Below, one piece after another: positions 9,067 through 37,433 of a DNA stretch of 47,246 nucleotides. The DNA comes from Bacteroidaceae bacterium. GTDB taxonomy: Bacteria > Bacteroidota > Bacteroidia > Bacteroidales > Bacteroidaceae. The stretch lies in assembly GCA_017616445.1 (NCBI GenBank), contig JAFZYE010000004.1, forward strand, positions 92,841 through 140,086, given 5' to 3'. The position numbers and the translations under genes are program-made. Under the pieces are notes generated by a model. That model was not told the origin of the DNA. It searched no databases and saw only the letters and a program-made list of their open reading frames with translations. The stretch's first letter is position 1; every line of letters begins with the position of its first letter.

Positions 9067-9119
9067 TTCCTATGAGCCCCATGAGCCTAAATCGCCCAAT
9101 AAACCTAAAAACAAAACTT

Positions 9120-18256: not shown

Positions 18257-18433
18257 ATGTCATCATCAACTCAAGGGAAAGAGCAGCTGAAGCAGCAGCT
18301 CGATGAGATAGGAGAAGAAATCAGAGCTATCTATGACAAATTGCTGGAGGCCGGTGTTGAAGACCCACTCTACAATATCCTGGACGAAGTGTCAGGGGGA
18401 CTTCCCTTTAACCCTGATTTTTACATTTCATAA
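18257..18433 (+). CDS. Peptide 1: double-glycine leader peptide precursor
   Basis: A 58-residue precursor. The ATG at 18257 is chosen because the next 45 residues align with the three other peptides of the cluster and because TTAAAGTT ATG also precedes peptide 3. The leader is a charged amphipathic helix (EQLKQQLDEIGEEIRAIYDK) followed by LLEAGVEDP and NILDEVSGG. Cleavage after Gly48 would release the 10-residue core LPFNPDFYIS. Double-glycine leaders are cut by C39 peptidase domains of ABC exporters, and one such exporter is encoded at 32160. The end of the core (FYIS) is read from TTTTTACATTTCATAA, which looks like the local spacer repeat, so the core may be worn or recently changed. It heads the methyltransferase cassette. 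Confidence 0.8.
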   Translation: MSSSTQGKEQLKQQLDEIGEEIRAIYDKLLEAGVEDPLYNILDEVSGGLPFNPDFYIS

Positions 18434-18464
18434 TTTTTCAATCTTTCAATTTTCAATTTTCCTT

Positions 18465-19322
18465 GTGAATTATAAAGAAGTAGAATTATACTATGAGCCA
18501 AGAACTCTGTGCCAGTCGAAATACGATTGGCCAGAAGAAGAACCTGAGATGTCAGATTTCGAATCTGCATTCTTGTGCGGACTGATTAAGAGAAAGAGAC
18601 CCCATAAGATTGTGGAAGTAGGGATTGCTGCAGGTGGAACAACCGCAATCATATTGAAATGTATCGAGTTGTTGGTAATGGAACAAGAATGTGAGATGTT
18701 CTCTGTTGACATATCCGAATGTTTCTACCGAGGGGAAGGAGAAAGAAGTGGCTATCTGGCCGACGAGTTGTTAAATCAACGAGGTTCTCATTTCAAGCAC
18801 ACATTCCTGCTCGGGAAACTGCTGCCAGAGGTGATTGATCGGATTGGTAATGATATTGACTTCGTCATCTTTGACACCATACATGCCATGCCTGGTGAAA
18901 TTCTTGACTTCCTTGCTATATATCCCTACATGAAGCCTGGAGCAACAGTTGTCTTGCACGACATAGCCGTCAGTCATTATAACAGACCAAGCCTGTTCGC
19001 CTATTCCAATCAAATACTATTAAGGTGCGTAGTAGGCGACAAGTACTTTATGTACGATGAGAGCAGGCCTTTAAAATATCCCAATATTGGTGCCTTTGAT
19101 ATGAATGACAACACCGATCAGTCTATCAGTGATGTTTTTCATGCACTGACTATTAACTGGAGATACCGTCTGGCCCCCACATCCTTTGAAATCTATGGCA
19201 ATCATTTTGAACGGCATTACGGAAAGGAAGCAGCCACGTTGTTTACTACCATCTATGAGATGCAGGAACATACATACCGCATGATGTTTGGGACATATTT
19301 AGGCAAAATCGCTAAAACATAA
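18465..19322 (+). CDS. Class I SAM-dependent methyltransferase
   Basis: A 285-residue protein from a GTG at 18465; the frame runs further upstream across peptide 1 but that part translates as spacer-like sequence, and the first coding-like residues are NYKEVELYYEP. Motif I is KIVEVGIAAGGTTAIIL (about residues 48-64), followed by an acidic strand end FSVDISE, then IDFVIFDTIHAMPGEIL and MKPGATVVLHDIA. This matches class I methyltransferases of the Methyltransf_24/CmcI-like type found in antibiotic and polysaccharide clusters. The substrate is unknown. Its position 31 bp after peptide 1 and before peptide 2 makes the peptide or its glycan a candidate target. An ATG at 18552 is another possible start. 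Confidence 0.8.
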   Translation: MNYKEVELYYEPRTLCQSKYDWPEEEPEMSDFESAFLCGLIKRKRPHKIVEVGIAAGGTTAIILKCIELLVMEQECEMFSVDISECFYRGEGERSGYLADELLNQRGSHFKHTFLLGKLLPEVIDRIGNDIDFVIFDTIHAMPGEILDFLAIYPYMKPGATVVLHDIAVSHYNRPSLFAYSNQILLRCVVGDKYFMYDESRPLKYPNIGAFDMNDNTDQSISDVFHALTINWRYRLAPTSFEIYGNHFERHYGKEAATLFTTIYEMQEHTYRMMFGTYLGKIAKT

Positions 19323-19375
19323 ATAGGGAATAGTTTTTTAATTTTTTAATTTTTCAATTTTAAAATTATAAGCTT

Positions 19376-19585
19376 ATGGCAACATTAACAAACAAAGAGA
19401 TTGAGCAGCTGCAGCAGCAACTCAAGGAGAAGTCAGAAGAAATCAAAGTGATCTACAACAAACTCGTGGAAGCTGGTGCTGTTCCACTCTCCGACGATAT
19501 TCTTGACATCGTAGGAGGAGGCTTTACACCTCCTACATCTTTGCCAGGAAGAGATATCTCGACAGACCGCATTGATAGACCATGA
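19376..19585 (+). CDS. Peptide 2: double-glycine leader peptide precursor
   Basis: A 69-residue precursor. The leader has the family pattern NKEIEQLQQQLKEKSEEIK, VIYNKLVEAGAVP, then DDILDIVGGG (residues 41-49). Cleavage after the glycines gives a core of about 20 residues, FTPPTSLPGRDISTDRIDRP, rich in Pro, Ser, Thr and Arg and without Cys. The upstream bases TATAAGCTTATGGCAACATT match those of peptide 4 nearly exactly, so the pair share their start region as well as the leader. The gene is followed by two SpoIIE-type phosphatases. Lack of Cys argues against lanthionine or disulfide chemistry; Ser and Thr could accept sugars. Confidence 0.85.
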   Translation: MATLTNKEIEQLQQQLKEKSEEIKVIYNKLVEAGAVPLSDDILDIVGGGFTPPTSLPGRDISTDRIDRP

Positions 19586-19707
19586 ACTTAGGAGTTAGGA
19601 TAATTAGACTCTAGACTTTAGACCTTAGACTTTAGTCAGTTTATAGTTGATAGTTATTATACATTATAAATTGTAAATTATACATTATAAATTATACATT
19701 TTATAAG

Positions 19708-21783
19708 ATGAAACGTGCATTACTGGTGCTGTTAGCACTGATACTGACATGCTATGCATGCAACCGTCAGGAAAACACCCGTGAAGTCGTAAGCAAACGG
19801 ATGGATTTCGGAATTCCTTCGAGAGCCGATACCCTCATGTTAGATGCCTTTAACACAAATGATTGGGCGCACATTGCTGCTGTTATTGACAGTTTGGAAC
19901 AAACGGGCGACTTTTCTGCAGTAGGTGCTAACTTCAACCGTGGCCGCATGTATATGTATCAGGAAAAGCATGCTATGGCATCTGAATACTTCAGACAGGT
20001 TGTCTGCAGCAAAGATATAGACGAACGCAGCTTCAAATACTACTATCCTTCGGTCAACTATCTCGGTACGGAGCTGTATAGAGTAGGCGACTACGAAGGC
20101 GCCCTGCGTGTGGCAGCCCCAGTTGTTGCGATGATGGACTCTCTCGATAACGGCAATATCGATTACCAGATCAATCTGCGCTCACTCATAGGATGTTGTT
20201 TCCTGAATCTCGGTCAGCTGGAGCAGGCCAAGGAGTCATTCAACCGTTCGTGTGCTTACTGCCACGAACTGCTGGCGAACGACACCACACAAGGCGCTCT
20301 GCAGAAATTCATCAACAATAACGGCCGTATCTACAACGCATACGTTGATATTAAAGACTGGGAAGATGCGTTGACGTGGGTTGAGTGCAACGATACACTG
20401 CTGGAAGTTTTCGAGCGGCGATACAAAGACGTGGCTTCCTACGTCGTAGAAATCTATAATGGCTATGCAGCTCTCAACCACGCCATCGTACTCCAAGGAC
20501 TGGGGCGCGAGGCAGAAGCTGCAACATATTACGACAAGCATCTTACCTTCAATTGCGCTAAAAGCACCGATGCTCGCATTCACGCAGTCGATTACCTGAT
20601 GGCCGCCCATCGCTACGGTGAGGCAGCAGACAATCTTACGTCTTTAGACCAACTCATTCCAAACCCCGACCTCAACGATATAGGAGCTTATTTCCTGCCC
20701 AAGTTCCAGGCCAACTACTTCGTCGGAAACACCGACACGGCTCTCTTAGTGGCTAATCGCATAGCTCAGGCCTACGATTCAGCACTTAGCGATCAAAAGA
20801 AAAACCAGATGGCAGAACTGGCCATGATCTACGACACGCAGGGCAAACAAATGCAGATAGCCCGCCAACAGTCAGAACTCAGTACCCAGCGATTCATCGG
20901 CACGGGCATAGCCCTCGTACTTCTCACCGTCTTTTTCATCATCTATATCTGGTATCGCCGCCGTGCACAGAAACGTCTCGCTGTAGCTCATGAACAACTG
21001 GAGAACGCCCACACGGAACTTCTTTCGGCATACAGCCAGCTCGAAGAGACAACGACGGCCAAGGAACGCATCGAATCGGAACTGCGTATCGCACGCGATA
21101 TACAGATGTCGATGGTGCCAGGCATCTTCCCCAAGTGCGAAGGGCTCGATATGTATGCCGAGATGAATCCTGCCAAAGAAGTGGGAGGCGACCTCTACGG
21201 CTACGTACTCATCGATCAGTGTCTGTATTTCTGTCTGGGCGACGTGAGCGGGAAGGGCGTTCCCGCATCGCTCTTCATGTCGCAGAGTGCCCGTCTGTTC
21301 CGTACGCTCGCTACGGAGAACCTTTCACCTGTCGATATCGCCATACGCATGAACAATGAGCTGGCCGAGAACAACGAGCGCGGCATGTTCGTCACGATGT
21401 TTATCGGCATGGTACACCTCGACACAGGACGCCTCGACTTCTGCAACTGCGGACACAATCCTCCCGTGATCGACGGAGAATTCCTGAAGATGGAGTACGA
21501 CAACCAGCCATTGGGCCTTTGGGAGGATGACCCCTTCATTGGTGAGACCATCGACGACATTCGCGGATGCCAGCTGCTCATCTATACAGACGGACTCAAC
21601 GAAGCCGAGAACAGGCAGCAGGAACTCCTTGGCAACGAACGTCTCTTGGAACTGATGGCCGATACCCGTTCGATGACCTCTCACGAAGTGATCGACATGC
21701 TGAAAGCCGCAGTCGAGCAACACCGCGACGGAGCCGACCCCAATGATGACTTGACGCTGATGTGCATCCAGTTGAGACGCTAG
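19708..21783 (+). CDS. TPR-TM-SpoIIE (PP2C-type) phosphatase 1
   Basis: A 691-residue inner-membrane protein. The N-terminus (MKRALLVLLALILTCYAC) may be a lipoprotein signal. A periplasmic TPR-like helical part follows (for example YLGTELYRVGDYEGALRVA and GCCFLNLGQLEQAKESF), then a membrane segment at about 395-417 (TGIALVLLTVFFIIYIWYRR), a coiled coil, and a cytoplasmic SpoIIE domain with RIARDIQMSMVP, EVGGDLYGY, LGDVSGKGVPASLFM, CNCGHNPP, YTDGLNEA and DPNDDLTLM, the metal-binding pattern of active PP2C phosphatases. Such enzymes dephosphorylate STAS anti-anti-sigma proteins. Partners of the right type lie at 30329 and 30897. The last third is nearly identical to phosphatase 2 at DNA level. 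Confidence 0.88.
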   Translation: MKRALLVLLALILTCYACNRQENTREVVSKRMDFGIPSRADTLMLDAFNTNDWAHIAAVIDSLEQTGDFSAVGANFNRGRMYMYQEKHAMASEYFRQVVCSKDIDERSFKYYYPSVNYLGTELYRVGDYEGALRVAAPVVAMMDSLDNGNIDYQINLRSLIGCCFLNLGQLEQAKESFNRSCAYCHELLANDTTQGALQKFINNNGRIYNAYVDIKDWEDALTWVECNDTLLEVFERRYKDVASYVVEIYNGYAALNHAIVLQGLGREAEAATYYDKHLTFNCAKSTDARIHAVDYLMAAHRYGEAADNLTSLDQLIPNPDLNDIGAYFLPKFQANYFVGNTDTALLVANRIAQAYDSALSDQKKNQMAELAMIYDTQGKQMQIARQQSELSTQRFIGTGIALVLLTVFFIIYIWYRRRAQKRLAVAHEQLENAHTELLSAYSQLEETTTAKERIESELRIARDIQMSMVPGIFPKCEGLDMYAEMNPAKEVGGDLYGYVLIDQCLYFCLGDVSGKGVPASLFMSQSARLFRTLATENLSPVDIAIRMNNELAENNERGMFVTMFIGMVHLDTGRLDFCNCGHNPPVIDGEFLKMEYDNQPLGLWEDDPFIGETIDDIRGCQLLIYTDGLNEAENRQQELLGNERLLELMADTRSMTSHEVIDMLKAAVEQHRDGADPNDDLTLMCIQLRR

Positions 21784-21784
21784 A

Positions 21785-21923
21785 ATTAAGAGTTAGGAGT
21801 TAGGAGTTAGGAGTTAGGAGTTAGGATAATTAGACTCTAGACTTTAGACTATAATTATTATATATTATACATTATAAATTATACATTATAAATTATGCAT
21901 TATACATTCTACATTTTAAATTA
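21785..21923. repeat. Microsatellite spacer: GAGTTAGG run then ATTATACATTATAAATT ladder
   Basis: GAGTTAGG tandem units, then TAGACTCTAGACTTTAGAC, then ATTATACATTATAAATTATAC units. The stretch around TAGGATAATTAGACTCTAG also occurs after peptide 2 (19588-19625), so this spacer was duplicated inside the cluster. Confidence 0.85.
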
Positions 21924-21929
21924 GGCACT

Positions 21930-24068
21930 ATGACATCAATTTTAAAATCTCTCCCCCTAAAGGGGGTCAAGGGGGGTCCTCATTATTACATTCTACATTC
22001 TACATTTTACATTCTACATTTTACATTCTACATTTTAATGTTTCTCCCCAGCTGCCAGGATAGTTCTGGTGCTGATGATGGCGAAAGCCTTTCGCAGCGC
22101 TTTTCCGATTACAGGTATCATCAGGAGTTCGATAAGGCGCTCGCTCTTATCGACTCCTGCGACCAGGCTGGTTTGTGGTATCCCGAACGATGCCATTACG
22201 ACAGGGGAATTATCTACGTCTATCTACTAAAAAATGATTTAGCAGAACAGGAGTACCGGAAAGGTATCGAGGCCACTAAGACGGGTGTACACGATCACGT
22301 GCATGTACTGGCATGCTATAGGGAACTCGCACGTTTGCTGTGCGACAATATGGACTGGGAGGGTGCCATGCGATTGGCCATGGAGGCTCATGACTTCATC
22401 GATGCCCTGAAGAGTGACGGAATAGACACTCCCCTCGACAGCGAGGCCTATCTGGATTTGATCATCGGTGAGACTCAGGCCAAGACGGGTAATCTTGAAG
22501 GGGCAGAGAAATCGTTTCAGGCCATGTGGCGTACGTTCCAGAAGATGATGGACGAGCAACCCGACTCTACTGTAAGCTATGTCATTATAAATGGCTTGTA
22601 CGGAGTGCTGCAAGGCTATTATTCGTCTCAGACCGGCTATGCCTACATGTTCAATTGGTTCGATATCTTCGATGAAGCCCTGGCGCGCTACTCTCCCACC
22701 ATGAATTCAGAAGATGTCGGGAATATACGGTTTATGCGACTTTTCTACGAGATGATTGCACAGGCTGAGACTGGTCACACCAATCGGGCTGCTGCCCTCT
22801 ACGAGGAATTCGTTGCATTGCCTCAAAGTCACGACTCTATCAGCGACGTTTACAAATTTGCCATCCTTCGACGTATCGGACGGTATCAGGAGGCTGCCGA
22901 TTATTTTGATAGCTATTATGCGAGAGTGGCCAAACAGTTCGGAGTCGAAGATCGCCTTGACGTACATGTCAACAATTTTTCTGTTGGCTATCAGCTTTAC
23001 CGCAAAACCGGCCAAACCGCCAAGGCCTTACAGATGGCCGACTCACTTGCCGCAAAGGCTGAATTGGCTATTGCGAAGATTCGCAACGAAAACTCTGCCC
23101 GACTCGCTACCATCTACGACACACAGGGCAAGGAAAGACAGATTGCTGAGCAACAGACCTTGATGAGCAAGCAACGCTCCTTAGCCTTGCTGGTGGTGTT
23201 AGTTCTTATGACCGTCTTCTTTATCATCTATTCGCTGAATCGTCGTCGTCACACAAAGCGTTTGGCTGCAGCCCACGAACAGTTAGAGACAGCTCATGCA
23301 GAACTCTTGACGGCATACGACAAGCTCGAAGAGACAACGACGGCCAAGGAACGCATCGAGTCCGAGCTTCGTATCGCCCGCGACATACAGATGTCGATGG
23401 TGCCCAATAACTTCCCGCAATACGAAGGCCTCGATATGTATGCCGAGATGAATGCGGCTAAGGAGGTGGGAGGCGATCTCTACGGCTACATCTTGCAGGG
23501 CAATAAACTGCACTTCTGTCTGGGCGACGTGTCAGGCAAAGGTGTTCCAGCCTCTCTCTTTATGTCGCAGAGTGCCCGTCTGTTCCGTACCCTCGCCACC
23601 GAGGGCATGGCACCCGTCGACATCGCTGTGCGTATGAACAACGAGCTGGCCGAGAACAACGATCGTGGTATGTTCGTCACGATGTTTATCGGCATGGTAC
23701 ACCTCGACACAGGACGCCTCGACTTCTGCAACTGCGGACACAATCCTCCCGTGATTGACGGAGAATTCTTGAAGATGGAGTACGACAACCAGCCATTGGG
23801 CCTTTGGGAGGATGACCCCTTCTTTGGTGAGACCATCGACGACATTCGCGGAAGCCAGTTGCTCATCTATACAGACGGACTCAACGAAGCCGAGAACAGG
23901 CAGCAGGAACTCCTTGGCAACGAACGTCTCTTGGAGCTGATGGCCGATACCCGTTCGATGACCTCTCACGAAGTGGTTGACATGCTGAAAGCCGCAGTCG
24001 AGAAACACCGCGACGGAGCCGACCCCAATGACGACTTGACGCTGATGTGCATCCAGTTGAGGCGCTAG
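21930..24068 (+). CDS. TPR-TM-SpoIIE (PP2C-type) phosphatase 2
   Basis: A 712-residue paralogue of phosphatase 1. The SpoIIE domain is complete (RIARDIQMSMVP, EVGGDLYGY, LGDVSGKGVPAS, YTDGLNEA, DPNDDLTLM) and nearly identical to the first copy, while the periplasmic TPR half is clearly different, so the two may sense different signals and share one target. A membrane segment (LALLVVLVLMTVFFIIYSL) separates the halves. The N-terminus is odd: residues 8-17 come from a CCCCCTAAAGGGGG repeat (PLKGVKGG) and 19-36 from an ACATTCTACATTTTAC ladder, read as YILHSTFYILHFTFYIL, followed by MFLPSC. This gives a usable lipoprotein signal made of repeat DNA. An ATG at 22038 is the alternative start but would lack most of the signal. 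Confidence 0.83.
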   Translation: MTSILKSLPLKGVKGGPHYYILHSTFYILHFTFYILMFLPSCQDSSGADDGESLSQRFSDYRYHQEFDKALALIDSCDQAGLWYPERCHYDRGIIYVYLLKNDLAEQEYRKGIEATKTGVHDHVHVLACYRELARLLCDNMDWEGAMRLAMEAHDFIDALKSDGIDTPLDSEAYLDLIIGETQAKTGNLEGAEKSFQAMWRTFQKMMDEQPDSTVSYVIINGLYGVLQGYYSSQTGYAYMFNWFDIFDEALARYSPTMNSEDVGNIRFMRLFYEMIAQAETGHTNRAAALYEEFVALPQSHDSISDVYKFAILRRIGRYQEAADYFDSYYARVAKQFGVEDRLDVHVNNFSVGYQLYRKTGQTAKALQMADSLAAKAELAIAKIRNENSARLATIYDTQGKERQIAEQQTLMSKQRSLALLVVLVLMTVFFIIYSLNRRRHTKRLAAAHEQLETAHAELLTAYDKLEETTTAKERIESELRIARDIQMSMVPNNFPQYEGLDMYAEMNAAKEVGGDLYGYILQGNKLHFCLGDVSGKGVPASLFMSQSARLFRTLATEGMAPVDIAVRMNNELAENNDRGMFVTMFIGMVHLDTGRLDFCNCGHNPPVIDGEFLKMEYDNQPLGLWEDDPFFGETIDDIRGSQLLIYTDGLNEAENRQQELLGNERLLELMADTRSMTSHEVVDMLKAAVEKHRDGADPNDDLTLMCIQLRR
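21953..21976 (+). repeat. CCCCCTAAAGGGGG repeat at the phosphatase 2 start
   Basis: CCCCCTAAAGGGGG then TCAAGGGGGG, in frame as PLKGVKGG. It is the third copy read in the same phase. Confidence 0.85.
21983..22036. repeat. ACATTCTACATTTTAC ladder read as a signal peptide
   Basis: Tandem TACATTCTACATTTTACATT units, open in the phosphatase 2 frame and rich in Tyr, Ile, Leu, Phe and His codons. Confidence 0.85.
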
Positions 24069-24190
24069 AATTAAGAGTTAAGAATTAAGAATTAAGAGTT
24101 AAGAAATTATACATTCTACATTTTACATTCTACATTATACATTATAAGTTATACATTATACATTATAAATTTTACATTTTACATTAAAGT
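24069..24190. repeat. Microsatellite spacer before peptide 3
   Basis: TTAAGAGTTAAGAATTAAG units, then ACATTCTACATTTTACATT and ATTATACATTATAAGTT units, filling the spacer between phosphatase 2 and peptide 3. Confidence 0.85.
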
Positions 24191-24191
24191 T

Positions 24192-24347
24192 ATGGCATTA
24201 TCAAATCAAGAAATTGAACAGCTGCAGCAGCAGCTCAAGGAGAAGGTAATAAATCTGGTGGAAATCTACTGCAAGCTTGTCGGGGCAGGAGTCATGGAAA
24301 TGCCTGACGACATCCTCGATGCTGTGCTGATGGACGAAGAAGAATAA
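24192..24347 (+). CDS. Peptide 3: leader-only member lacking the Gly-Gly motif and core
   Basis: A 51-residue product that is easy to miss because of its size. Residues 1-45 align with the other leaders: SNQEIEQLQQQLKEKV, then IYCKLVGAGVMEMPDDILDAV. Where peptides 2 and 4 have VGGG or VAGGG this one has VLMDEEE and stops, so there is neither a processing site nor a core. It carries one Cys in the helix (YCKL). The same TTAAAGTT ATG context as peptide 1 precedes it, and the frame is intact, so it appears to be translated. It may be a decayed precursor, or a leader-like protein kept for a helper role such as recruiting the GT8 enzymes that follow directly at 24379. Confidence 0.75.
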   Translation: MALSNQEIEQLQQQLKEKVINLVEIYCKLVGAGVMEMPDDILDAVLMDEEE

Positions 24348-24378
24348 CATTTTACATTCTACATTTTACATTCTATAT

Positions 24379-25476
24379 ATGCTCTACCTCTGCTATTCCA
24401 TCAACGACTTTTACGCTCGCGAGGCTGGCATCTCGATGCTGAGCTTCCTGGATAACAATCCTGACTACGAGCCCGACGAGGTGTTCTTTATCGACTATGG
24501 CATCGTGCCTGCCAATAAGGAACGGCTCAACAGCATCGCAGCGCGTTATGGCAAGCGTGTCACTTACCTGAATGGTAAACCTGTGACTGCTGCGATGAAA
24601 CGCCAGTTCCCGAACTATTCTGCATGGAAGGGGAGTATGGCGGCCTGCATCAAGCCGTTCTTCGACAAAATCATGCCAGAATATGTCGAGCGTTTGCTTT
24701 ATTTAGATGCCGACACCATCGTGGCGGGATCGGTAGAGGAGTTGCAGCATATCGATATGGGCGATGCAGTTGTCGCAGGTACTATTTCCAATTCCGAGGG
24801 CCATCGTCTGCTGACGAACCAGTATCAGCTATACAGCGGAAACAAAATATACATGGGTAGCGGCGTGCTACTCTTCGACCTGAAGAACTGGCGACGAGAG
24901 AACTGCTACCAACGAGTGGTAGATGTACTGGGCAAAAAGAAACGATTCCGTCTGCCCGACCAGATGCTCATCAACAACGCCATACCTGAGCGGCTGATGA
25001 AAGTGCTACCACAAAAGTACAACTACGTGACACACTCCTTCCATCCATGGCAGGAATACCAAATGATGATGGAATATGACATCTACACCGCGGAAGAGTG
25101 TCGTGAGGCTATCGATCATCCTGTCATCATCCACTACCTGACTGGTTGGATGCTTGCTCGTCCTTGGCACAAAGGATGTCGCTCTCACCGCAAAGAAGAG
25201 TACTATCACTACAAGGCCCTTTCGCCTTGGAAGGATACACCACTTGCTCCATCCATCCAGACGATGTTTCCACCAAAGACCTTCCAAGATAAGGTGTTTT
25301 TGTTTTTCTTCATGCTGTTCATGAAACCTATTCCATACCAACTGTCTATGTTCTTCTGGAAGATGTACGGCAAGCTTGAAAACAAGAGAAAGAGAAGAAA
25401 AGGTATCTACAATCATTCAGATGAAGGAATAGAAGATATTGACTTCCAGAGTGGGGGAGTGAATAGTGAAAAGTGA
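24379..25476 (+). CDS. GT8-family glycosyltransferase 1
   Basis: A 365-residue cytoplasmic glycosyltransferase of the GT8 type (LgtC/glycogenin-like fold, retaining, metal-dependent). It starts MLYLCYSINDF and has the nucleotide-sugar metal motif DAD at residues 110-112 (RLLYLDADTIVAGS), the MGSGVLLFDLKNWRREN block, DQMLINNAIP, and a C-terminal HYLTGWMLARPWH resembling the family's HxxGxxKPW signature. It lies 31 bp after peptide 3 and before a close paralogue. Donor and acceptor are unknown; candidates are a peptide of this cluster or a surface glycan. The last residues (VNSEK) are encoded by spacer-like repeat, so the C-terminus may be altered. Confidence 0.88.
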   Translation: MLYLCYSINDFYAREAGISMLSFLDNNPDYEPDEVFFIDYGIVPANKERLNSIAARYGKRVTYLNGKPVTAAMKRQFPNYSAWKGSMAACIKPFFDKIMPEYVERLLYLDADTIVAGSVEELQHIDMGDAVVAGTISNSEGHRLLTNQYQLYSGNKIYMGSGVLLFDLKNWRRENCYQRVVDVLGKKKRFRLPDQMLINNAIPERLMKVLPQKYNYVTHSFHPWQEYQMMMEYDIYTAEECREAIDHPVIIHYLTGWMLARPWHKGCRSHRKEEYYHYKALSPWKDTPLAPSIQTMFPPKTFQDKVFLFFFMLFMKPIPYQLSMFFWKMYGKLENKRKRRKGIYNHSDEGIEDIDFQSGGVNSEK

Positions 25477-25479
25477 ATA

Positions 25480-25531
25480 CATTTTACATTCTACATTCAA
25501 CATTTTACATTCAACATTTTACATTCTATAT
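25480..25531. repeat. ACATTCTACATTCAACATT ladder
   Basis: The whole gap between GT8-1 and GT8-2 consists of ACATTTTACATTCAACATT units and ends in CTATAT just before the ATG, exactly as before GT8-1 and GT8-3. Confidence 0.85.
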
Positions 25532-26587
25532 ATGCTCTACCTCTGCTATTCCATCAACGACTTCTCTGTTATGCAAGCAGGCATCTCAATGTTGAGCTTT
25601 CTGGAGAACAATCCCGACTATGAGCCTGACGAGGTGTTCGTCTTGAACTTTGGTATTATGCCCATAAACAAGGAACGGCTTAACAGCATCGCAGCACACT
25701 ACGGCAAGCGTGTTACATATCTGAGTGCCAAGCACGTCACTAACGAGATTAAGCGGACGTTCCCCCATTTGTCGAGCTGGCGAGGTACAATGGCTCCTAA
25801 CGCCAAGGCTTTCATGGACAAGATTATGCCCGAGTATGTCGAGCGCTTGCTCTTTATCGATGCCGATACGTTGGTGACGGGTTCAGTATCTGAGCTGAAT
25901 CATTTGGACATGGGTGGAGCTGCCCTCGCTGCAGTACCACAATGCTGGGAGTCGTACCTGATGAGGAAGGGTTGGTTGAAGCTTTACTCAAACAGTGATA
26001 TGTATTTCAACTCAGGTGTGCTACTCTACGACCTCAATGTGTGGCGCAATGAGGATTGTAACAAGATGGTGATAGATATGCTGCGGACAAAGAAGCAGTT
26101 TTACGCTCCCGACCAAACGCTGCTCAACAACGCCATTCCTGGACGCTTGCAGAAACAACTACCACCGAAATACAATCATAACACACATTGGCAGCATCCC
26201 CGACAGGAACTCAAAAACCTGCGCATAGGGAACATACACACTGAGGAAGAAATCCAAGAGGCCATCCATCATCCTGTCATCATTCATTACACAGGAGGCG
26301 ACCATCACGCACGTCCTTGGCATAGAGGATGTCGCTCTTACCGTATACCTGAGTACATGTATTACCAGAATCTATCACCTTGGAAAGACCTTCCACTCTT
26401 TCCCCGTCAGACCTCTTTTCGCCCAGGTCTGTCGGGCAAGTGTCTCCAAATCTACTTCTGGATGATGTCGAAACAACCGTATTCTGCCCTGTCGGATGTA
26501 ACGTTGACCCTGTGTCGCAAAATCGAAAAAGTAGAATCACGATGGCATAAGATGCCAGCAAAAATGGAAGAAGGTATTGAGGGTTGA
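25532..26587 (+). CDS. GT8-family glycosyltransferase 2
   Basis: A 351-residue paralogue of GT8-1. The start at 25532 is chosen because MLYLCYSINDF aligns with both other copies; an upstream in-frame ATG at 25466 would only add repeat-encoded residues (YILHSTFNILHSTFYILY). The DAD motif is at 110-112 (RLLFIDADTLVTGS), with FNSGVLLYDLNVW, DQTLLNNAIP and HYTGGDHHARPWH. GTMAPNAKAF is shared with GT8-3 but not GT8-1 (GSMAACIKPF), so copies 2 and 3 are probably closest and may share an acceptor. It is probably cotranscribed with GT8-1. Confidence 0.88.
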   Translation: MLYLCYSINDFSVMQAGISMLSFLENNPDYEPDEVFVLNFGIMPINKERLNSIAAHYGKRVTYLSAKHVTNEIKRTFPHLSSWRGTMAPNAKAFMDKIMPEYVERLLFIDADTLVTGSVSELNHLDMGGAALAAVPQCWESYLMRKGWLKLYSNSDMYFNSGVLLYDLNVWRNEDCNKMVIDMLRTKKQFYAPDQTLLNNAIPGRLQKQLPPKYNHNTHWQHPRQELKNLRIGNIHTEEEIQEAIHHPVIIHYTGGDHHARPWHRGCRSYRIPEYMYYQNLSPWKDLPLFPRQTSFRPGLSGKCLQIYFWMMSKQPYSALSDVTLTLCRKIEKVESRWHKMPAKMEEGIEG

Positions 26588-26693
26588 GACTTTAGACCTT
26601 AGACTTTAGACCTTAGACTTTAGTCTTAATTATTACATTTTATAATTATTCAAACTTTAATTTTTTAAATTTTTTAATTTTTAAATTTTAAGC
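26583..26693. repeat. TTAGACTTTAGACC run and poly-A/T spacer before peptide 4
   Basis: ACTTTAGACCTTAGACTTTAG units followed by a long A/T-only stretch (TTTTTTAAATTTTTTAATTT), ending in AAGCTT directly before the peptide 4 ATG. Peptide 2 has an equivalent stretch at 19323-19375. Confidence 0.8.
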
Positions 26694-26695
26694 TT

Positions 26696-26902
26696 ATGGC
26701 AACATTATCAAATCAAGAGATTGAGCTGCTGAAGCAGCAACTCAAAGAGAAGACAAAAGAAGTTAAGGCTATCTACGACAAGCTCGTGGAGGCAGGCGTA
26801 ATTGAAGTCTCCGATGACTTCCTCGATGAGGTGGCAGGAGGAGGCTGGGGTATATTCTACGGTTCCGACCTCTATGGAACCGACCATCACGGTTTCGTGT
26901 AA
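26696..26902 (+). CDS. Peptide 4: double-glycine leader peptide precursor
   Basis: A 68-residue precursor. The leader SNQEIELLKQQLKEKTKEVK, AIYDKLVEAGVIEVSDD, FLDEVAGGG follows the family pattern. Cleavage at the glycines (48-50) leaves a core of about 18 residues, WGIFYGSDLYGTDHHGFV, rich in Gly, aromatic residues and His, again without Cys. The core shares nothing with those of peptides 1 and 2, while leaders and upstream bases are conserved, the hallmark of leader-guided peptide families. It is followed 15 bp later by a GT2 glycosyltransferase, then UDP-galactopyranose mutase and GT8-3. Ser, Thr or Tyr in the core could be glycosylation sites; that is inference. Confidence 0.87.
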   Translation: MATLSNQEIELLKQQLKEKTKEVKAIYDKLVEAGVIEVSDDFLDEVAGGGWGIFYGSDLYGTDHHGFV

Positions 26903-26917
26903 GTCTCCCCGTTACTC

Positions 26918-27910
26918 ATGAATAGAAAGATTCTCTCCGTCGTTGTGCCTGTCTATAATATGCAGGACTATCTCTATCGGTGTTTAGACTCGCTTCTGAT
27001 AAGCAATCAGGAGTTTTTCCAAGCATTGGAGGTCATCGTGGTAAATGATGGTAGCACGGACGGTTCGCTGCGGATAGCGCGTGATTACGAAACGCACTAT
27101 CCCAGCGTATTCCGCATTATCAACAAGACGAACGGCAACTGTGGCTCGTGCATCAATGCCGCACTCGCTGTTGCTACAGGAAAGTATTTCCGCCAACTCG
27201 ATGCAGATGACTGGTTTGATACCGAAGCCCTTACCGCCTTTGTTGGCCTGCTCCGAGATCGCAACGAGGACATCGTCAGTACGCCGAAGACAATCCATTA
27301 TAGTGACGGGAGGATCTTGGCCTTCAAGGCAAGCAGCGTTGACTATGGTCAAACCTACCTGATTGATGACTTACATCTCAAGGGATCGTTGGAGAAGGGA
27401 CTCATCACGATGCAGGCTCTTTCTTTTAGGACAGATTTCCTGAGGAACATCGGTCATCGTCAGCAGGAAGGAATCTTTTATACAGACTTAGAGTATTGTT
27501 ACTTTCCTATGAAGGGAGCCCGCGACATATATTTCAGCGACCTATATGTCTATCAATACCTCATCGGAAGAGAAGGGCAGTCTGTCTCGTTTAAGAATAT
27601 GGTGAAGAATAAGCACCATCACTTTCTGGTGGCGAAAAGACTGATGAGCGACCTCATTGCCATTCAAGGTTCAATAAGCGACAACCGACGCCGTATTCTT
27701 CTCAACGAACTATCCCCAGCCGTTATTGCCGTCTATCGGGATAGTCTGTTATACACAAAGCCGGACTCCGACCTCTTGGAACTGGACCAGTTGGTAGGGC
27801 AACAGTACGTTATGAATCAGGCAGTTGAGAAACTGACATATAAAAACGTTCCATACGTCAAACTCTGGCGTGAGCTGCATATTGATCTCCATTTTCTTCT
27901 ATTCATTTAA
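26918..27910 (+). CDS. GT2-family glycosyltransferase
   Basis: A 330-residue GT-A fold glycosyltransferase of family 2 (inverting). It has SVVVPVYNMQDYLYRCLDSL (residues 7-26), VVNDGSTDGS (41-50) for UDP-sugar binding and the metal motif in RQLDADDWFD (92-101). The rest is a poorly conserved acceptor domain, without membrane segments. It is 15 bp downstream of peptide 4 and about 60 bp upstream of the UDP-galactopyranose mutase gene. That neighbour suggests UDP-galactofuranose as a possible donor, although GT2 enzymes use many sugars. Acceptor unknown. Confidence 0.88.
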   Translation: MNRKILSVVVPVYNMQDYLYRCLDSLLISNQEFFQALEVIVVNDGSTDGSLRIARDYETHYPSVFRIINKTNGNCGSCINAALAVATGKYFRQLDADDWFDTEALTAFVGLLRDRNEDIVSTPKTIHYSDGRILAFKASSVDYGQTYLIDDLHLKGSLEKGLITMQALSFRTDFLRNIGHRQQEGIFYTDLEYCYFPMKGARDIYFSDLYVYQYLIGREGQSVSFKNMVKNKHHHFLVAKRLMSDLIAIQGSISDNRRRILLNELSPAVIAVYRDSLLYTKPDSDLLELDQLVGQQYVMNQAVEKLTYKNVPYVKLWRELHIDLHFLLFI

Positions 27911-27971: not shown

Positions 27972-29066
27972 ATGATGTTTGACTATCTGATAGTAGGTTC
28001 TGGACTATATGGGGCGACATTTGCCTACAAAGCCAGACAGGCAGGAAAGAATTGTCTGGTGATAGACCGTCGTTCGTATCTGGGTGGGAATGTGCGCTGT
28101 GAGACCGTCGAGGGTATCAACGTGCACTGCCATGGACCTCACATTTTCCATACTGACAACCGTAAGGTGTGGGACTTTGTAAACTCATTCGTGGAGTTCA
28201 ACCGCTTCATCCACTCACCCCTTGCCAGCTATCAGGGGCGGCTGTACAACCTGCCGTTTAATATGAATACATTTTACCAAATGTGGGGCGTGACTACTCC
28301 TGAAGAGGCACGGAAAAGAATGGGGAAAACATGTCGCCTGTCTGATACAAATCTCGAAGAATATGCCATTTCAATAGTGGGTCAGGAGCTCTACGAAGCA
28401 TTCATCAAGGGTTATACGGAAAAGCAGTGGGGACGTAGTTGCAGGGAGTTGCCTTCAAAGATTCTTAGACGATTGCCCGTAAGGTTTGTCTACGACAATA
28501 ACTATTACAACAACCGATATCAGGGCATTCCAATTGGAGGCTATAACAAACTAATCAATGGGCTGTTGAAAGGGGTGGAAACGAGAACAAATGCAGACTT
28601 CTTCGACAATCGCCATGAATGGGAGTCGGTAGCGAAGCAGATTGTCTATACGGGACCGCTTGACCAGTTTTTTGACTACAAACTGGGGCATCTGGAGTGG
28701 CGCAGCGTCACTTTTGAGCAAGAGGTGTTACCAGTACCCAACTATCAGGGCGTGGCTGTGGTGAATTATACGGAGAGGAATGTGCCTTATACCCGCATTA
28801 TTGAACACAAGCACTTTGAGATGTTTGGCGATGAGGTCGAACAACATCCTACGACGGTGATAAGTCGTGAATACCCAAAAGCCTGTAGGCTGGGTGTGGA
28901 ACCCTACTACCCTGTAAACGACCAGCGTAACAGTGTCCTCGCTGACCAATACCGCAATTTGGCCGCACAGGAGAAGAACGTAATATTCGGCGGACGGCTC
29001 GCCGAATACAAATACTACGATATGGATACCGTTGTCGAAAAAGCGCTACTAACTCCCAACTCCTAA
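27972..29066 (+). CDS. glf: UDP-galactopyranose mutase
   Basis: A flavoenzyme converting UDP-galactopyranose to UDP-galactofuranose in the cytoplasm, the donor for galactofuranosyl transfer. The product has 364 residues from 27972. The FAD-binding start is FDYLIVGSGLYGATFA, then RSYLGGNVRCE, the family marker HCHGPHIFHTDN, FIKGYTEKQWGR, RLPVRFVYDNNYYNNRYQGIP and YTGPLDQFFDYKLG, and GRLAEYKYYDMD near the end. The ATG at 27960 would add four residues encoded by spacer sequence (AAATTGCCAAATG), so 27972 or 27975 is preferred. Placed between GT2 and GT8-3, it implies that the cluster makes a galactofuranose-containing product. Confidence 0.95.
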   Translation: MMFDYLIVGSGLYGATFAYKARQAGKNCLVIDRRSYLGGNVRCETVEGINVHCHGPHIFHTDNRKVWDFVNSFVEFNRFIHSPLASYQGRLYNLPFNMNTFYQMWGVTTPEEARKRMGKTCRLSDTNLEEYAISIVGQELYEAFIKGYTEKQWGRSCRELPSKILRRLPVRFVYDNNYYNNRYQGIPIGGYNKLINGLLKGVETRTNADFFDNRHEWESVAKQIVYTGPLDQFFDYKLGHLEWRSVTFEQEVLPVPNYQGVAVVNYTERNVPYTRIIEHKHFEMFGDEVEQHPTTVISREYPKACRLGVEPYYPVNDQRNSVLADQYRNLAAQEKNVIFGGRLAEYKYYDMDTVVEKALLTPNS

Positions 29067-29130: not shown

Positions 29131-30192
29131 ATGCTCTACCTCTGCTATTCTATCAACGATTTCTTCGCACGCGAAGCGGGTATTTCGCTAGTCGGTTTTT
29201 TTGAAAACAACCTCGATTACGAACCGGAGGAGGTCTTCTTCCTCGACTACGGTATACACGCTATCAACAAGCAGAAACTCGAGAGTATTGCTGCACATTA
29301 CGGCCGGCGCATCACCTATCTGAAGGCCAAATCCATCACCGCACAGATGAAGCGCGAATTTCCTCACCTGAAAGCTTGGCGAGGTACGATGGCTCCCAAT
29401 GCCAAGGCTTTTGTTGATATAATCATGCCCGACTATGTGCATCGTCTGCTCTTCGTAGATGCCGACACGGTTGTGGCAGGTTCTGTGAGAGAGTTGAATC
29501 ATTTGGACATGGGTGGAGCTGCACTTGGTGTCGTGCCTGCCGCCTTGAAAAAGGAAGAACTCGCGAAAAAAAGCGTCAAGCTGGAAAGCGGAAACAAGAT
29601 ATACTTTAACTCAGGTGTGTTGCTCTATGACCTCGACAATTGGCGGCGTGAGAATTGTCACCAGATGATTTTAGACATGCTCCAGAAAAAAATCAACCTT
29701 GACTGGCCCGACCAGAATCTGCTCAACAACGCCATTCCCGAACGAATTATCAAGTGCCTGCCGCTTAAGTTCAACTACCTGACCCATTACTATCATCCCA
29801 AGCAAGAGCTGTACATGCTTCACCGCTGTCATGTGTACAGCGAACAGGAGATACAGGAGGCCATCCATCATCCAGCCATCATTCACTATTTAGGTGGGTG
29901 GGTCATGTCAAGGCCTTGGTACGAAGGATGCCGCTCGACACACTCTGAAGAGTACTTGCGCTACAAGGCACTATCGCCTTGGAAGGACACGCCCCTTTTC
30001 ATTCACAGCACAGATACGAAGCCGCCCACCGACTTTAGAGGAAGGCTCAGTTATTGGCAGATGAAGCAGTATAGTAAGTGTCACTCATACCGACTGACAC
30101 GACTGACGGACCTTTTCTGCAAAAAAATCTTTTGGATAATGAATAAATACGAACATTTAAAACAAAAACTGCGATGGAGCCGAACCGAATGA
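29131..30192 (+). CDS. GT8-family glycosyltransferase 3
   Basis: A 353-residue paralogue of GT8-1 and GT8-2. It starts MLYLCYSINDFFAREAG, has the DAD motif near 110-112 (RLLFVDADTVVAGS), FNSGVLLYDLDNWRREN, DQNLLNNAIP and HYLGGWVMSRPWY. GTMAPNAKAF is shared with GT8-2. The last codons (RWSRTE and the TGA) are supplied by a fragment of a phosphatase gene: 30171-30225 matches the 3' end of phosphatase 2 but is read in another frame. The present C-terminus therefore arose by recombination, and a phosphatase gene once lay here or nearby. Confidence 0.88.
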   Translation: MLYLCYSINDFFAREAGISLVGFFENNLDYEPEEVFFLDYGIHAINKQKLESIAAHYGRRITYLKAKSITAQMKREFPHLKAWRGTMAPNAKAFVDIIMPDYVHRLLFVDADTVVAGSVRELNHLDMGGAALGVVPAALKKEELAKKSVKLESGNKIYFNSGVLLYDLDNWRRENCHQMILDMLQKKINLDWPDQNLLNNAIPERIIKCLPLKFNYLTHYYHPKQELYMLHRCHVYSEQEIQEAIHHPAIIHYLGGWVMSRPWYEGCRSTHSEEYLRYKALSPWKDTPLFIHSTDTKPPTDFRGRLSYWQMKQYSKCHSYRLTRLTDLFCKKIFWIMNKYEHLKQKLRWSRTE

Positions 30193-30328: not shown

Positions 30329-30760
30329 ATGAAACGAGAACTTACATTCAAAAATGAAGAACAAGAGCTTAACCGCGTCGCCCAGTTCATGGAAGAAGTG
30401 TGCGACCAACTGCAGCTCGACATGCACGTGGCTATGAAACTCCAACTAGCCATTGAGGAGATGGTGACAAACGTCATCTTCTATGCCTACCCGCAAGGCA
30501 CGAGTGCTGACATCACGCTCTCGGCCGAAAGCGACGACAACGAACTGACCTTCGTTCTCTCCGATAGCGGTCAACCGTTTGACCCAACCGCTAAGGAGGA
30601 TGCCGACATCGACGTTAACCCTATGGATCGCGAGCAAGGCGGTATGGGTATTCTCATCGTCAAGAACATCATGAACGACGTGAGCTACCAGAGGCTGGGC
30701 GACATGAATCAACTCACCATGAAGAAAAAGTTAAGCCCCTCTAACTCCGAGGAAGGATAA
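30329..30760 (+). CDS. RsbW-like anti-sigma factor / serine protein kinase
   Basis: A 143-residue GHKL-fold ATPase of the RsbW/SpoIIAB type. The N box is LAIEEMVTNVIFYAYP (Asn48), the G1 box LSDSGQPFDP (Asp79, Gly81) and the G2 region EQGGMGILIVKNIMND (102-117). Such proteins either bind and block a sigma factor or output regulator, or phosphorylate a STAS antagonist. The antagonist is encoded 136 bp downstream and two matching phosphatases lie upstream, giving a full partner-switching set except for the output factor. No sigma factor gene is present in the window, so the output must be encoded elsewhere or be unconventional. Confidence 0.9.
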   Translation: MKRELTFKNEEQELNRVAQFMEEVCDQLQLDMHVAMKLQLAIEEMVTNVIFYAYPQGTSADITLSAESDDNELTFVLSDSGQPFDPTAKEDADIDVNPMDREQGGMGILIVKNIMNDVSYQRLGDMNQLTMKKKLSPSNSEEG

Positions 30761-30896: not shown

Positions 30897-31202
30897 ATGT
30901 CACAGATAATCAAGGAGAATGGTAAGACCATCATCAAAACAGGACAGCGTATTGACACGCTGAACGCAGCACAGTTTGAAACCGATATTCAGCCAGCATT
31001 GGAGCAGGGCGTGAACTTGGAAATCGATTGCTCTGATTTGAACTACATGGCTAGTTCGGGGCTTCGTGTCTTCCAGACTACGATGCGTACTGTAGTGCGT
31101 ACGCTCGGAGGCCAAATGAAACTGACGCATGTGAACGATGACATCTTCGATATCCTGAAAATGACAGGGTTCACCCGTCATATCACAGTGGAGAGAGACT
31201 AG
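30897..31202 (+). CDS. STAS-domain anti-anti-sigma factor, RsbV-like
   Basis: A 101-residue single STAS domain. The phosphorylation loop is DLNYMASSGLRVFQ, with Ser53 or Ser54 the expected target of the RsbW-like kinase. The C-terminal part LTHVNDDIFDILKMTGFTRHI fits the family. Unphosphorylated STAS proteins bind the kinase and release its partner. The start is the ATG at 30897, since the in-frame TTG at 30855 lies in the upstream hairpin. With the kinase it sits directly before the export genes (38 bp to HlyD), which suggests that the switch controls the peptide export system or is co-expressed with it. Confidence 0.92.
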   Translation: MSQIIKENGKTIIKTGQRIDTLNAAQFETDIQPALEQGVNLEIDCSDLNYMASSGLRVFQTTMRTVVRTLGGQMKLTHVNDDIFDILKMTGFTRHITVERD

Positions 31203-31239: not shown

Positions 31240-32076
31240 ATGGCAGAGTTATTCAACAAAGAGGCTCTGGACGCACTCGACGATCATAGCGAAGCCGAGG
31301 AGATGGCCAGGGTAGCATCGCCGAAGGTAAAGATCGTGATAGCTGCGATGGTGGCGATGATGGTAGTAGTCATCTACTGGTGCATCTTCGGTACCATCAA
31401 CTACAAGGTGACAGCTCAGGGAGTGGTCTTTCCTTTCGCCGAAGCTGCTCCTATCTGTGTACCTTACGATGGAGCAGTGAGCCGCAGTCTGGTGGGGCAT
31501 GGCAAAGCTGTAGCATACGGGACGGGTATCGTGGAGATACGAAATGCACTCTCCACCTCCGTTGTGATGGCTCCGCGTGACGGGGTGGTCATCCAGACCC
31601 TTCAAGCTGGCACTCAGTTCAAGGCAGGTGAGCCCGTCGCATGGCTGTTGCCCCAGACACAGCAGATGGCTGGGCGCGAAATGCTCTGCTATGTGACCTA
31701 CAATGACTTGCGCAAGCTGAGGATAGGTCAGCAGGTGCAGGCAACGCCTGCCAATCTGGAACGCGAGAACTGGGGCTACGCCTACGGACGGGTGGCGGGC
31801 ATCGAACAGTACCCCACAACACGGCAGGAAATTGTCAGTCGGTTGAAACTCGACCCTTTGGCTGCTTTCATTCAGGATGGTCAGGCGATGTACGAGGTGA
31901 GGGTGACCCTTGATGAACAAAACGGCGGTCTCGTATGGAGCCGTGAGAAGAGCCGTGACGTGAAGGTAGAAAATGGTTCATTGTGTAATATTCAGATCAT
32001 TACGCAGAAGAAACCTGTATGGCGTGTCCTCATCGGAACAGTTGAGAACACCGTTCAGTCGTTGACAGGGAATTAA
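31240..32076 (+). CDS. HlyD-family inner-membrane adaptor, NHLM type
   Basis: A 278-residue membrane-fusion protein. A short cytoplasmic N-terminus rich in acidic residues precedes one membrane segment at about 31-51 (VIAAMVAMMVVVIYWCIFG). The periplasmic part has lipoyl-like hairpin halves (PYDGAVSRSLVGHGKAVAYG and PRDGVVIQTLQAGTQFKAGEP) and a beta-barrel domain. It lacks a long coiled-coil hairpin, as is usual for the short HlyD proteins of NHLM bacteriocin export systems. It would link the two ABC exporters at 32160 and 34373 to the periplasmic parts. It is likely cotranscribed with the STAS gene upstream and the exporter genes downstream. Confidence 0.87.
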   Translation: MAELFNKEALDALDDHSEAEEMARVASPKVKIVIAAMVAMMVVVIYWCIFGTINYKVTAQGVVFPFAEAAPICVPYDGAVSRSLVGHGKAVAYGTGIVEIRNALSTSVVMAPRDGVVIQTLQAGTQFKAGEPVAWLLPQTQQMAGREMLCYVTYNDLRKLRIGQQVQATPANLERENWGYAYGRVAGIEQYPTTRQEIVSRLKLDPLAAFIQDGQAMYEVRVTLDEQNGGLVWSREKSRDVKVENGSLCNIQIITQKKPVWRVLIGTVENTVQSLTGN

Positions 32077-36551: not shown

Positions 36552-37433
36552 ATGAGAAAGATAATCTTGATCATAGCAGTCACCGCCATCATGGCAGGCT
36601 GTGGTGAATCCCGTCCCAGCCACCTTTCTGAAGGAATGGGCGCGGATAGTCTGGCCATAGAGAATATGGACTCTCAAGATAATTGCTCCCTTCCCCCGCA
36701 GGAAGGTGTTGGAGTTTCTACTATGGGTAAGGTGGTAGCTGCTCACTATGCTGATTTGTCGTTCGAAACGGCTCTGCCCATTGAAAAGGTGCTTGTGAAA
36801 AACGGTCAGCAAGTTCGACGTGGACAGACATTGGCCGTTCTTGACCAATACAAACTGCGTAACGCTATCGACCAGCAGCAACGTGCCATCGAGCAGGCTC
36901 AGCTGCAGATTGAGCAGGCTCAACTACAGATGCAGGATGTCATTATCTCGCAAGGATATGATCCAGACAAGGCTACTTCCATTCCTTCGGATGTAAGGCA
37001 TCATGCTGATGTTAAGTCGGGTTATGCGCTGGCTAATAACCAACTTGCTACGGCACGCACACAACTTGCTGCAGCACAGCATGAACTTCGTAGCGGTGTA
37101 CTTACTGCTCCCTTCGATGGTGTGGTGGCCAACCTTTCTGTGCAGGCTCATCAGTTGGCACAGCCAGGCCAGACGGTGTGTCGTGTGATTGCCACCGGTG
37201 ATATGGAGGTTGAATTCCGCGTGATGGAGGCCGACCTCTCTAAATATAAAATAGGTACGGGCGTAGACATCATTCCTGTTGCGGACCCAGGTATCCGTTA
37301 CAAAGCCATCGTTAGTGAAATCAACCCTGTCGTTGATGAGCAGGGAGCCATCACGCTTCGTGCTAAATTATCAGACGCGCAGAACCTCTTTGATGGCATG
37401 AATGTGGAAGTCATACTTGAAGATAAGAGTTAA
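36552..37433 (+). CDS. Lipoprotein periplasmic adaptor (HlyD/RND-type membrane-fusion protein)
   Basis: A 293-residue lipoprotein (signal MRKIILIIAVTAIMAGC, Cys17). After a short linker it shows LSFETALPIEKVLVKNGQQVRRGQTLAVLD, a lipoyl half-motif, then a coiled coil (DQQQRAIEQAQLQIEQAQLQ), the second half LTAPFDGVVANLSVQAHQLAQPGQTV, and beta-barrel and membrane-proximal domains. These are the parts of RND-type periplasmic adaptors, though no RND pump is present. Here it probably bridges the ABC exporters and the HlyD protein to the outer-membrane channel encoded 23 bp downstream. Two different adaptors in one export operon is unusual. Confidence 0.9.
   Translation: MRKIILIIAVTAIMAGCGESRPSHLSEGMGADSLAIENMDSQDNCSLPPQEGVGVSTMGKVVAAHYADLSFETALPIEKVLVKNGQQVRRGQTLAVLDQYKLRNAIDQQQRAIEQAQLQIEQAQLQMQDVIISQGYDPDKATSIPSDVRHHADVKSGYALANNQLATARTQLAAAQHELRSGVLTAPFDGVVANLSVQAHQLAQPGQTVCRVIATGDMEVEFRVMEADLSKYKIGTGVDIIPVADPGIRYKAIVSEINPVVDEQGAITLRAKLSDAQNLFDGMNVEVILEDKS

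Follow-up and report, generated by a model that had tools for sequence, protein, structure and literature searches.

A family of double-glycine leaders with hypervariable cores and an NHLM-type exporter in a Bacteroidaceae genome

The window analyzed here is a stretch of 47,246 nucleotides (G000:C54:92841-140086) from a Bacteroidaceae draft genome (G000; 2.38 Mb, 70% complete). It encodes four small proteins that share an N-terminal leader, together with a peptide exporter and several glycosyltransferases. Genomes, contigs, and loci are referred to by G, C, and L numbers. The four small genes are as follows.

18257..18433, + strand: putative precursor peptide 1; leader end SGG, then core LPFNPDFYIS
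19376..19585, + strand: putative precursor peptide 2; GGG, then core FTPPTSLPGRDISTDRIDRP
24192..24347, + strand: leader-only protein without GG; C-terminal end LMDEEE
26696..26902, + strand: putative precursor peptide 3; core (G)WGIFYGSDLYGTDHHGFV

The original prediction, made from the sequence alone, had described four small genes with a common leader, three of which run through GG or GGG into unrelated cores. Both points held. All four open reading frames (ORFs) are present on the + strand, with starts at 18257, 19376, 24192, and 26696, and share a leader of about 48 residues with 15 invariant columns in the first 46 alignment positions. The alignment has GG or GGG and then an unrelated core in three of the four members; the fourth (24192) ends in DDILDAVLMDEEE. 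Leave-one-out hidden Markov model searches recovered each omitted window member at E values of 8.8e-14 to 4.6e-26, and the top score in 40 dinucleotide-shuffled windows was 7.6 bits, versus 95 to 104 bits for the four real genes. The likeness among these leaders is far above chance. The sequence ACATTAAAGTT lies immediately 5' of the ATG in both the 18257 and 24192 genes.

A whole-genome profile search (E ≤ 0.01) found a wider family of 47 matches, fragments counted, in six of eight genomes: 14 in G864, 10 in G865, 10 in G225, 6 in G000 (two of them further members on contig C74), 4 in G841, and 3 in G810. G379 and G028 had no leader match in this search. Across the genus, 2 of 17 genomes matched at E ≤ 0.01, one of them being G002 (E 0.0019), where the match was partial and judged to be chance; across the family, 8 of 399 genomes matched at the same threshold, with strong matches only in G000 and G225. 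At E ≤ 1e-4, we found matches in 1 of 393 genomes of the order and in 3 of 101 genomes of the genus of G225. A named genome collection returned four loci, of which RUG13388, RGIG8060 (labelled water-buffalo rumen), and RUG10713 are members and the fourth was judged a chance match. Partial matches at L040 and marginal, partial ones in G002, G184, G191, G236, G240, and G348 were likewise judged to be chance and were left out of the member counts. Overlapping loci were counted once: L038 has the same sequence as G225:C96 (L034), and the G864 and G865 stretches contain L037 and L039. No relative was found among 600 pattern matches in viral contigs, and one query against plasmids gave no match. The family is carried by a small number of gut-type Bacteroidota, and water-buffalo rumen is the source of at least one.

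The 21 loci gave 51 ORF hits, and the 37 near-full GG members among them were used for statistics. The 14 left out comprise two GG-less members, a methyltransferase fusion, a lipoprotein fusion, one member truncated where its contig stops, and nine with short, late-starting, or broken leaders. GG at -1/-2 was the entry condition for the 37, and its presence there is no evidence. Mean identity among these members was 57% in the leader and 24% in the core, the latter versus 22% for shuffled cores. Thirty members have a 49-residue leader; among them, the nonsynonymous proportion (pN) was below the synonymous proportion (pS) in 435 of 435 pairs, and the median ratio of nonsynonymous to synonymous rates (dN/dS) was 0.24 over 363 usable pairs. 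The hypervariable cores behind a conserved leader that had been proposed are borne out by these figures. G864 carries a tandem array of six leaders, their cores unrelated, a short way upstream of an HlyD-ABC1-ABC2-MFP-TolC run; the leaders are 1 to 9.5 nonsynonymous changes apart, and synonymous changes exceed nonsynonymous ones in 15 of 15 pairs. These comparisons indicate that the leaders are under purifying selection and that the cores are about as alike as shuffled ones.

Cores are 9 to 44 residues long, with Ser/Thr in 33, Pro in 34, and Cys in 5 of the 37; Pro makes up 11.2% of core residues versus 3.6% in 19 window proteins, and the L085 core reads APTPTPTPTPTTPTTT. Of the 43 hits that cover profile columns 7 to 45, 39 extend to GG; of the four that do not, one is truncated where its contig stops. 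The arrays that hold full leaders also contain short-leader variants such as LDENELDQVTGG. By a motif of our own choosing, the leaders split into subtype 1 (n = 14) and subtype 2 (n = 23), whose profiles still match each other (probability 99.1%) without the last 14 columns.

Downstream of the small genes, the window encodes a set of export components.

31240..32076, + strand: HlyD-like adaptor; partial match to TIGR03794 NHLM_micro_HlyD (107.7 bits; cut-off 156.2)
32160..34295, + strand: NHLM exporter subunit 1 (C39 peptidase, permease, ATPase); TIGR03796, 877.6 bits (cut-off 853.3)
34373..36541, + strand: NHLM exporter subunit 2; TIGR03797, 698.7 bits (cut-off 709.4)
36552..37433, + strand: periplasmic adaptor (RND_mfp type)
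37457..38986, + strand: TolC/OEP-like outer-membrane channel

A C39-peptidase exporter had been predicted in the same region as the small genes; it is encoded, but at 32160-34295, beyond the interval 18257..26902 that they span. Its identity as an NHLM-type exporter is supported by TIGR03796 and by a LahT-like C39 domain, which matches structure 6mpz at E 2.9e-55. That entry is a LahT147-peptide structure with the triad Cys27, His101, and Asp117, as given in PMC6363468, and these residues align with C18, H90, and D107 of the window domain (positions hand-counted on the alignment). According to section 8 of the same paper, processing by LahT150 needs no more than the final 13 residues of the leader, Leu -7 is important, V, L, or I is usual at -4, where Thr is tolerated, and a Leu -12 to Ala change is partly processed and a change to Phe poorly. 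In our 37 leaders, -7 is always Leu; -4 is Val in 28, Ala in 8, and Thr in 1; and -12 is Leu in 26, Ile in 6, Met in 2, and Val, Phe, and Pro in 1 each, hydrophobic in 36 of 37. On sequence, the leader ends fit the rules given for LahT150 in PMC6363468. A separate exporter operon with TolC, MFP, HlyD, and STAS genes was found at L060 (G379:C25), with an ABC1 85% identical to that of the window.

The original prediction allowed that the leader might match an already described precursor family; no NCBIfam model reached its cut-off when 24 members were scanned singly. The best E values, 0.00044 and 0.00066, were to a CTB family bacteriocin model and covered the GG end (20.4 and 19.8 bits; cut-off 32). 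The proposed distinctness from the Bacteroidota precursors of TIGR04149 and from the NHLP leader (TIGR03793) stood, with neither model matching any of the 24 members at E ≤ 10, a range in which HMMER filters drop most matches above about 0.1. The general bacteriocin signal TIGR01847 (cut-off 15.7 bits) was not reached either; two L035 short-leader variants scored 15.6 and 15.2 bits and L070:397 scored 13.4, near misses that rest on the 13-residue GG end only. Pfam scans of 21 members gave no consistent family among the 25 of 67 families listed, the best E value being 5.2e-5 for one member (Med10). The leader profile had 30 weak matches to solved structures, of coiled-coil type (best E 0.0099), and PADLOC reported 0 families for six proteins. 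In the open literature, whose coverage mostly leaves out subscription papers, we found no account of the leader family or of a GT8-modified ribosomally synthesized and post-translationally modified peptide (RiPP).

A resemblance to Nif11 leaders had also been suggested, and it survives at the extreme C terminus of the leader and nowhere else. One of the 24 members touches TIGR03798 (L070:397; E 0.15, 12.3 bits, cut-off 32.3), over its last 25 leader residues, and genome G000 has no match to this model at E ≤ 0.001. By hhalign, the leader matched a set of 23 Nif11 leaders, excised by our own pattern and a few of them odd at their ends, with 79.8% probability over 13 columns at the GG end; after removal of the last 14 columns the probability was 1.5%, versus 99.95% for a positive control that compared one half of the Nif11 set with the other. 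Nif11 membership was ruled out by this profile comparison and the single-member scans. Judged from the sequences, the likeness is restricted to the last ~13 residues, which correspond to the C39 protease recognition motif.

We consider it likely that these genes form a double-glycine leader family in which many cores use one exporter, with the cores cleaved and exported by the NHLM system; a leader family with hypervariable cores is itself well supported by the sequence comparisons. The small genes would be precursors of exported peptides, and the conserved leader of ~48 residues would act as the signal for docking and cleavage. Within the NHLM exporter (32160-34295), the C39 domain would cut after GG, and the exporter with its HlyD, adaptor, and TolC partners would release the variable core outside the cell, a single exporter per genome serving many unrelated cores, similar to prochlorosin- or lah-type systems. 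Where a locus has a trio of GT8 glycosyltransferases, described below, its cores would probably be glycosylated before export; a SpoIIE/RsbW/STAS module probably gates the system, and competition with neighbours would be a first guess at its role.

Comparisons across genomes and within one near-duplicate pair are consistent with cleavage and export of variable cores. TIGR03796 is over cut-off in five of six leader genomes versus 8 of 399 family genomes (two of the 8 being leader genomes); among the four genomes found by leader alone it is present in 3, versus 6 of 397 (Fisher p 3e-5), but the genomes are few, draft, and related, and such Fisher tests rest on non-independent samples. The near-duplicates L034:118 and L035:255, on two G225 contigs, have flanks that are 98% identical over 100 bases upstream and 92% over 60 bases downstream, and differ by 2 nonsynonymous changes in ~150 leader sites versus 13 in ~66 core sites (Fisher p 5e-6).

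Several further observations weigh against this explanation. The core's own nonsynonymous excess in that pair is not significant (13/66 versus 2/18, p 0.51), and strain variation in the draft metagenome assembly could account for the near-duplicate. G810 (87% complete) has leaders but no NHLM exporter match, and G379, with its closely related exporter (ABC1 85% identical), has no leader match. Ala -4, found in eight members, lies outside the changes reported in section 8 of PMC6363468, and one family leader has the Phe -12 that, in the same section, impaired LahT150. The cores are without common chemistry. All of the evidence is sequence: the family, leader constraint, core divergence, exporter identity, and co-occurrence are read from it, and cleavage, export, glycosylation, control, and role are what we infer. 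As to the type of activity, we do not favor a classic cationic antimicrobial reading, the mean net charge of 35 cores being 0.06.

The remaining genes of the region bear on how the cores might be modified and controlled.

18465..19322, + strand: Methyltransf_24 family protein (predicted GTG start)
19708..21783, + strand: TPR and SpoIIE (PP2C-type phosphatase) protein, with a predicted membrane segment between both
21930..24068, + strand: second SpoIIE phosphatase protein
24379..25476, + strand: GT8 glycosyltransferase a
25532..26587, + strand: GT8 glycosyltransferase b
26918..27910, + strand: GT2 glycosyltransferase
27972..29066, + strand: UDP-galactopyranose mutase; TIGR00031, 374.1 bits (cut-off 303.75)
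29131..30192, + strand: GT8 glycosyltransferase c
30329..30760, + strand: RsbW/SpoIIAB-like kinase (HATPase_c_2)
30897..31202, + strand: STAS-domain protein
39011..40375, + strand: lipoprotein-like protein; weak Mfa2 match in the N-terminal half (19.6 bits; cut-off 21.2)

The window genes form an operon-like set with a dedicated GT8 subfamily, a methyltransferase, and a SpoIIE/RsbW/STAS switch. All three GT8 proteins are over the Pfam Glyco_transf_8 cut-off (89.0, 101.1, and 94.5 bits versus 24.3); the DxD motif (D110-A-D112) is invariant in 12 sequences, and the GT8 profile has six matches to solved structures, LgtC being best at 2.3e-15. The C-terminal domain of the 39011 protein occurs in four of six leader genomes versus 2 of 40 others (Fisher p 0.0013). 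Among its 13 listed matches, four share a gene run with peptide or GT8 genes, one per leader genome in four genomes, and the other nine lie elsewhere or in non-leader genomes. From its position only, the 39011 protein is a candidate immunity or receptor protein. Two proteins that look alike, L069:1525-2481 and L068:1074-2024, adjoin SpoIIE phosphatase genes of related systems; the former is NMT1/THI5-like by Pfam and is perhaps a sensor. Elsewhere in the window, 9072-12593 encodes a peptidase C10 that also carries Spi inhibitor and dockerin domains.

One refinement of the exported-peptide explanation is that the GT8 trio, with the GT2 enzyme and UDP-galactopyranose mutase of the window, O-glycosylates core Thr/Ser under guidance of the leader, and that export releases small glycopeptides. 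Among 59 genomes, a set that excludes G864 and G865, proteins at least 51% identical to GT8a are found in two (three in G000 and nine in G225), on leader-bearing contigs; five other genomes match at 27 to 33% identity. GT8 trios also adjoin leaders in L101 and L102, and a GT8 gene is present in the same fetched locus for 10 of 14 subtype-1 leaders versus 4 of 23 subtype-2 leaders (Fisher p 0.0017), although the subtypes follow our own motif and the fetched loci are of unequal length, so that absence of a GT8 gene is weak evidence. Only two of the 23 subtype-2 genes have a GT8 gene at a distance of 1.5 kb or less. The Pro-rich composition of the cores and the L085 core agree with this refinement, but the Thr excess of GT8-linked, subtype-1 cores leans on that one repeat core (p 0.005 with it and a weak 0.08 without), G810 and G841 have leaders and no GT8 match at E ≤ 1e-20, and the GT8, GT2, and mutase enzymes could instead serve a surface polysaccharide. 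GT8 enzymes are not known to modify peptides in any RiPP system. We hold glycosylation of the cores as a tentative proposal that falls a little short of an even chance.

The leader-only protein has a relative in G225 (L034:1235-1396), with 38 of 48 aligned residues identical and the same acidic ending. Because this relative is conserved with pN (0.117) below pS (0.676), the 24192 protein looks, from the sequence comparison, to be retained as a protein and not a decaying copy. Both genes lie directly 5' of GT8a. The original prediction had named conserved, uncleaved full-length proteins as a finding that would speak against it, and such conservation is seen for the GG-less 24192 protein with its one relative and not beyond that. 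L035:1101-2156 of G225 encodes a methyltransferase related to the 18465 protein, with a GG-less leader-like C-terminal domain ending in DDFLDQLLY, and lies before a GT8 gene. The leader-only protein may have a cytoplasmic docking role; at the corresponding place, L101 and L102 carry GG peptides. We can also imagine a new leader-guided class of Bacteroidota glycopeptides, in which a GT8 trio decorates rapidly diversifying Pro/Thr-rich cores, the cleavage-proof 24192 protein docks the GT8 enzymes in trans, and the library leaves the cell through one NHLM pump that a SpoIIE/RsbW/STAS switch controls, but we regard this full combination as unlikely.

At L102:3067-3711 (- strand), the first 19 leader columns run into lipoprotein-like sequence, resembling recombination between similar starts. 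L070:3769-4098 (- strand), on the peptide contig of G841, has an N-terminal hydrophobic stretch and the end ELDEVTGG-LHTRPRPKPTSSTSL, like a membrane-anchored precursor. Directly upstream of the G028 NHLM operon, a small ORF at L067:15659-15859 (+ strand) stops right after LSLEELDKITGG, giving a GG leader with no core.

It is improbable, in our view, that the peptides are signals (pheromones) sensed by their producers, with the SpoIIE/RsbW/STAS module acting in the response. These three genes stay beside the exporter in the window, in L035 (G225), and in the distant G028; RsbW and STAS alone are found in L086 (G841), where the contig begins, and STAS alone in G379. The short cores would also suit a signal, but the exporters of L084 and L085 have no SpoIIE, RsbW, or STAS match at E ≤ 1e-10 in the fetched stretches, and many unrelated cores per genome would in our judgment be unusual for a self-signal. 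It is very improbable that the small proteins act in the cytoplasm as regulators or chaperones of GT8 enzymes, with an incidental GG: the GG-less member kept in two genomes and the methyltransferase fusion suit it, but most leader-spanning hits reach GG, Leu -7 is invariant, the cores vary at the shuffled level, and few subtype-2 genes lie near a GT8 gene.

The exported-peptide system has its nearest known counterparts in the Nif11-leader/prochlorosin and lah-type systems (TIGR03798; LahT), which likewise combine a conserved leader, diverse cores, and several precursors per exporter. In those systems, as described in PMC6363468, GG is cut by a C39/PCAT exporter, and the window C39 domain matches the LahT structure. 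Unlike them, our leaders lack Nif11 profile similarity outside the last columns, and GT8 enzymes are encoded where no lanthionine synthetase turned up among the scanned window proteins. The family, on its sequences, works like a Nif11/lah-type many-cores system, but its leaders fall outside those families. The NHLP/NHLM bacteriocin systems (PMC2887384) are similar in their exporter (TIGR03796, TIGR03797 just below cut-off, and a partial TIGR03794 adaptor), but no member matches the NHLP leader model, and PMC4289311 gives NHLP leaders as 66 to 85 residues, versus about 48 here.

In glycocins of the sublancin type, a glycosyltransferase adjoins a GG-leader precursor, as here; the known glycocin enzymes are GT2-type and their cores contain Cys, whereas this family has a GT8 trio and few Cys-containing cores. 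Other Bacteroidaceae (G395, G202, G309, and G124) have an NHLM ABC1 over cut-off and GG leaders, but their ABC1 proteins are 47 to 50% identical to that of the window, and their precursors have short QPLSDEELAxVxGG-type leaders and Cys-rich cores. Cys-rich peptides behind this type of leader were seen at L059:7318-7754, L062:7080-7370, L064:6990-7199, and L066:1974-2291.

The undescribed leader family supplies dozens of natural cores in six genomes, in an order for which few bacteriocins are known according to PMC10352776. The C39 domain, the GT8 trio, and the precursors form a directly testable set of enzymes and substrates, with the leader-only protein as a control, and if the GT8 enzymes do act on the cores, this would be a tailoring chemistry not known from any such peptide. 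Tandem arrays that pair near-constant leaders with unrelated cores offer a clear setting in which to study the diversification of peptide libraries, and in the Bacteroidota that carry them the peptides are probably a varied secreted set.

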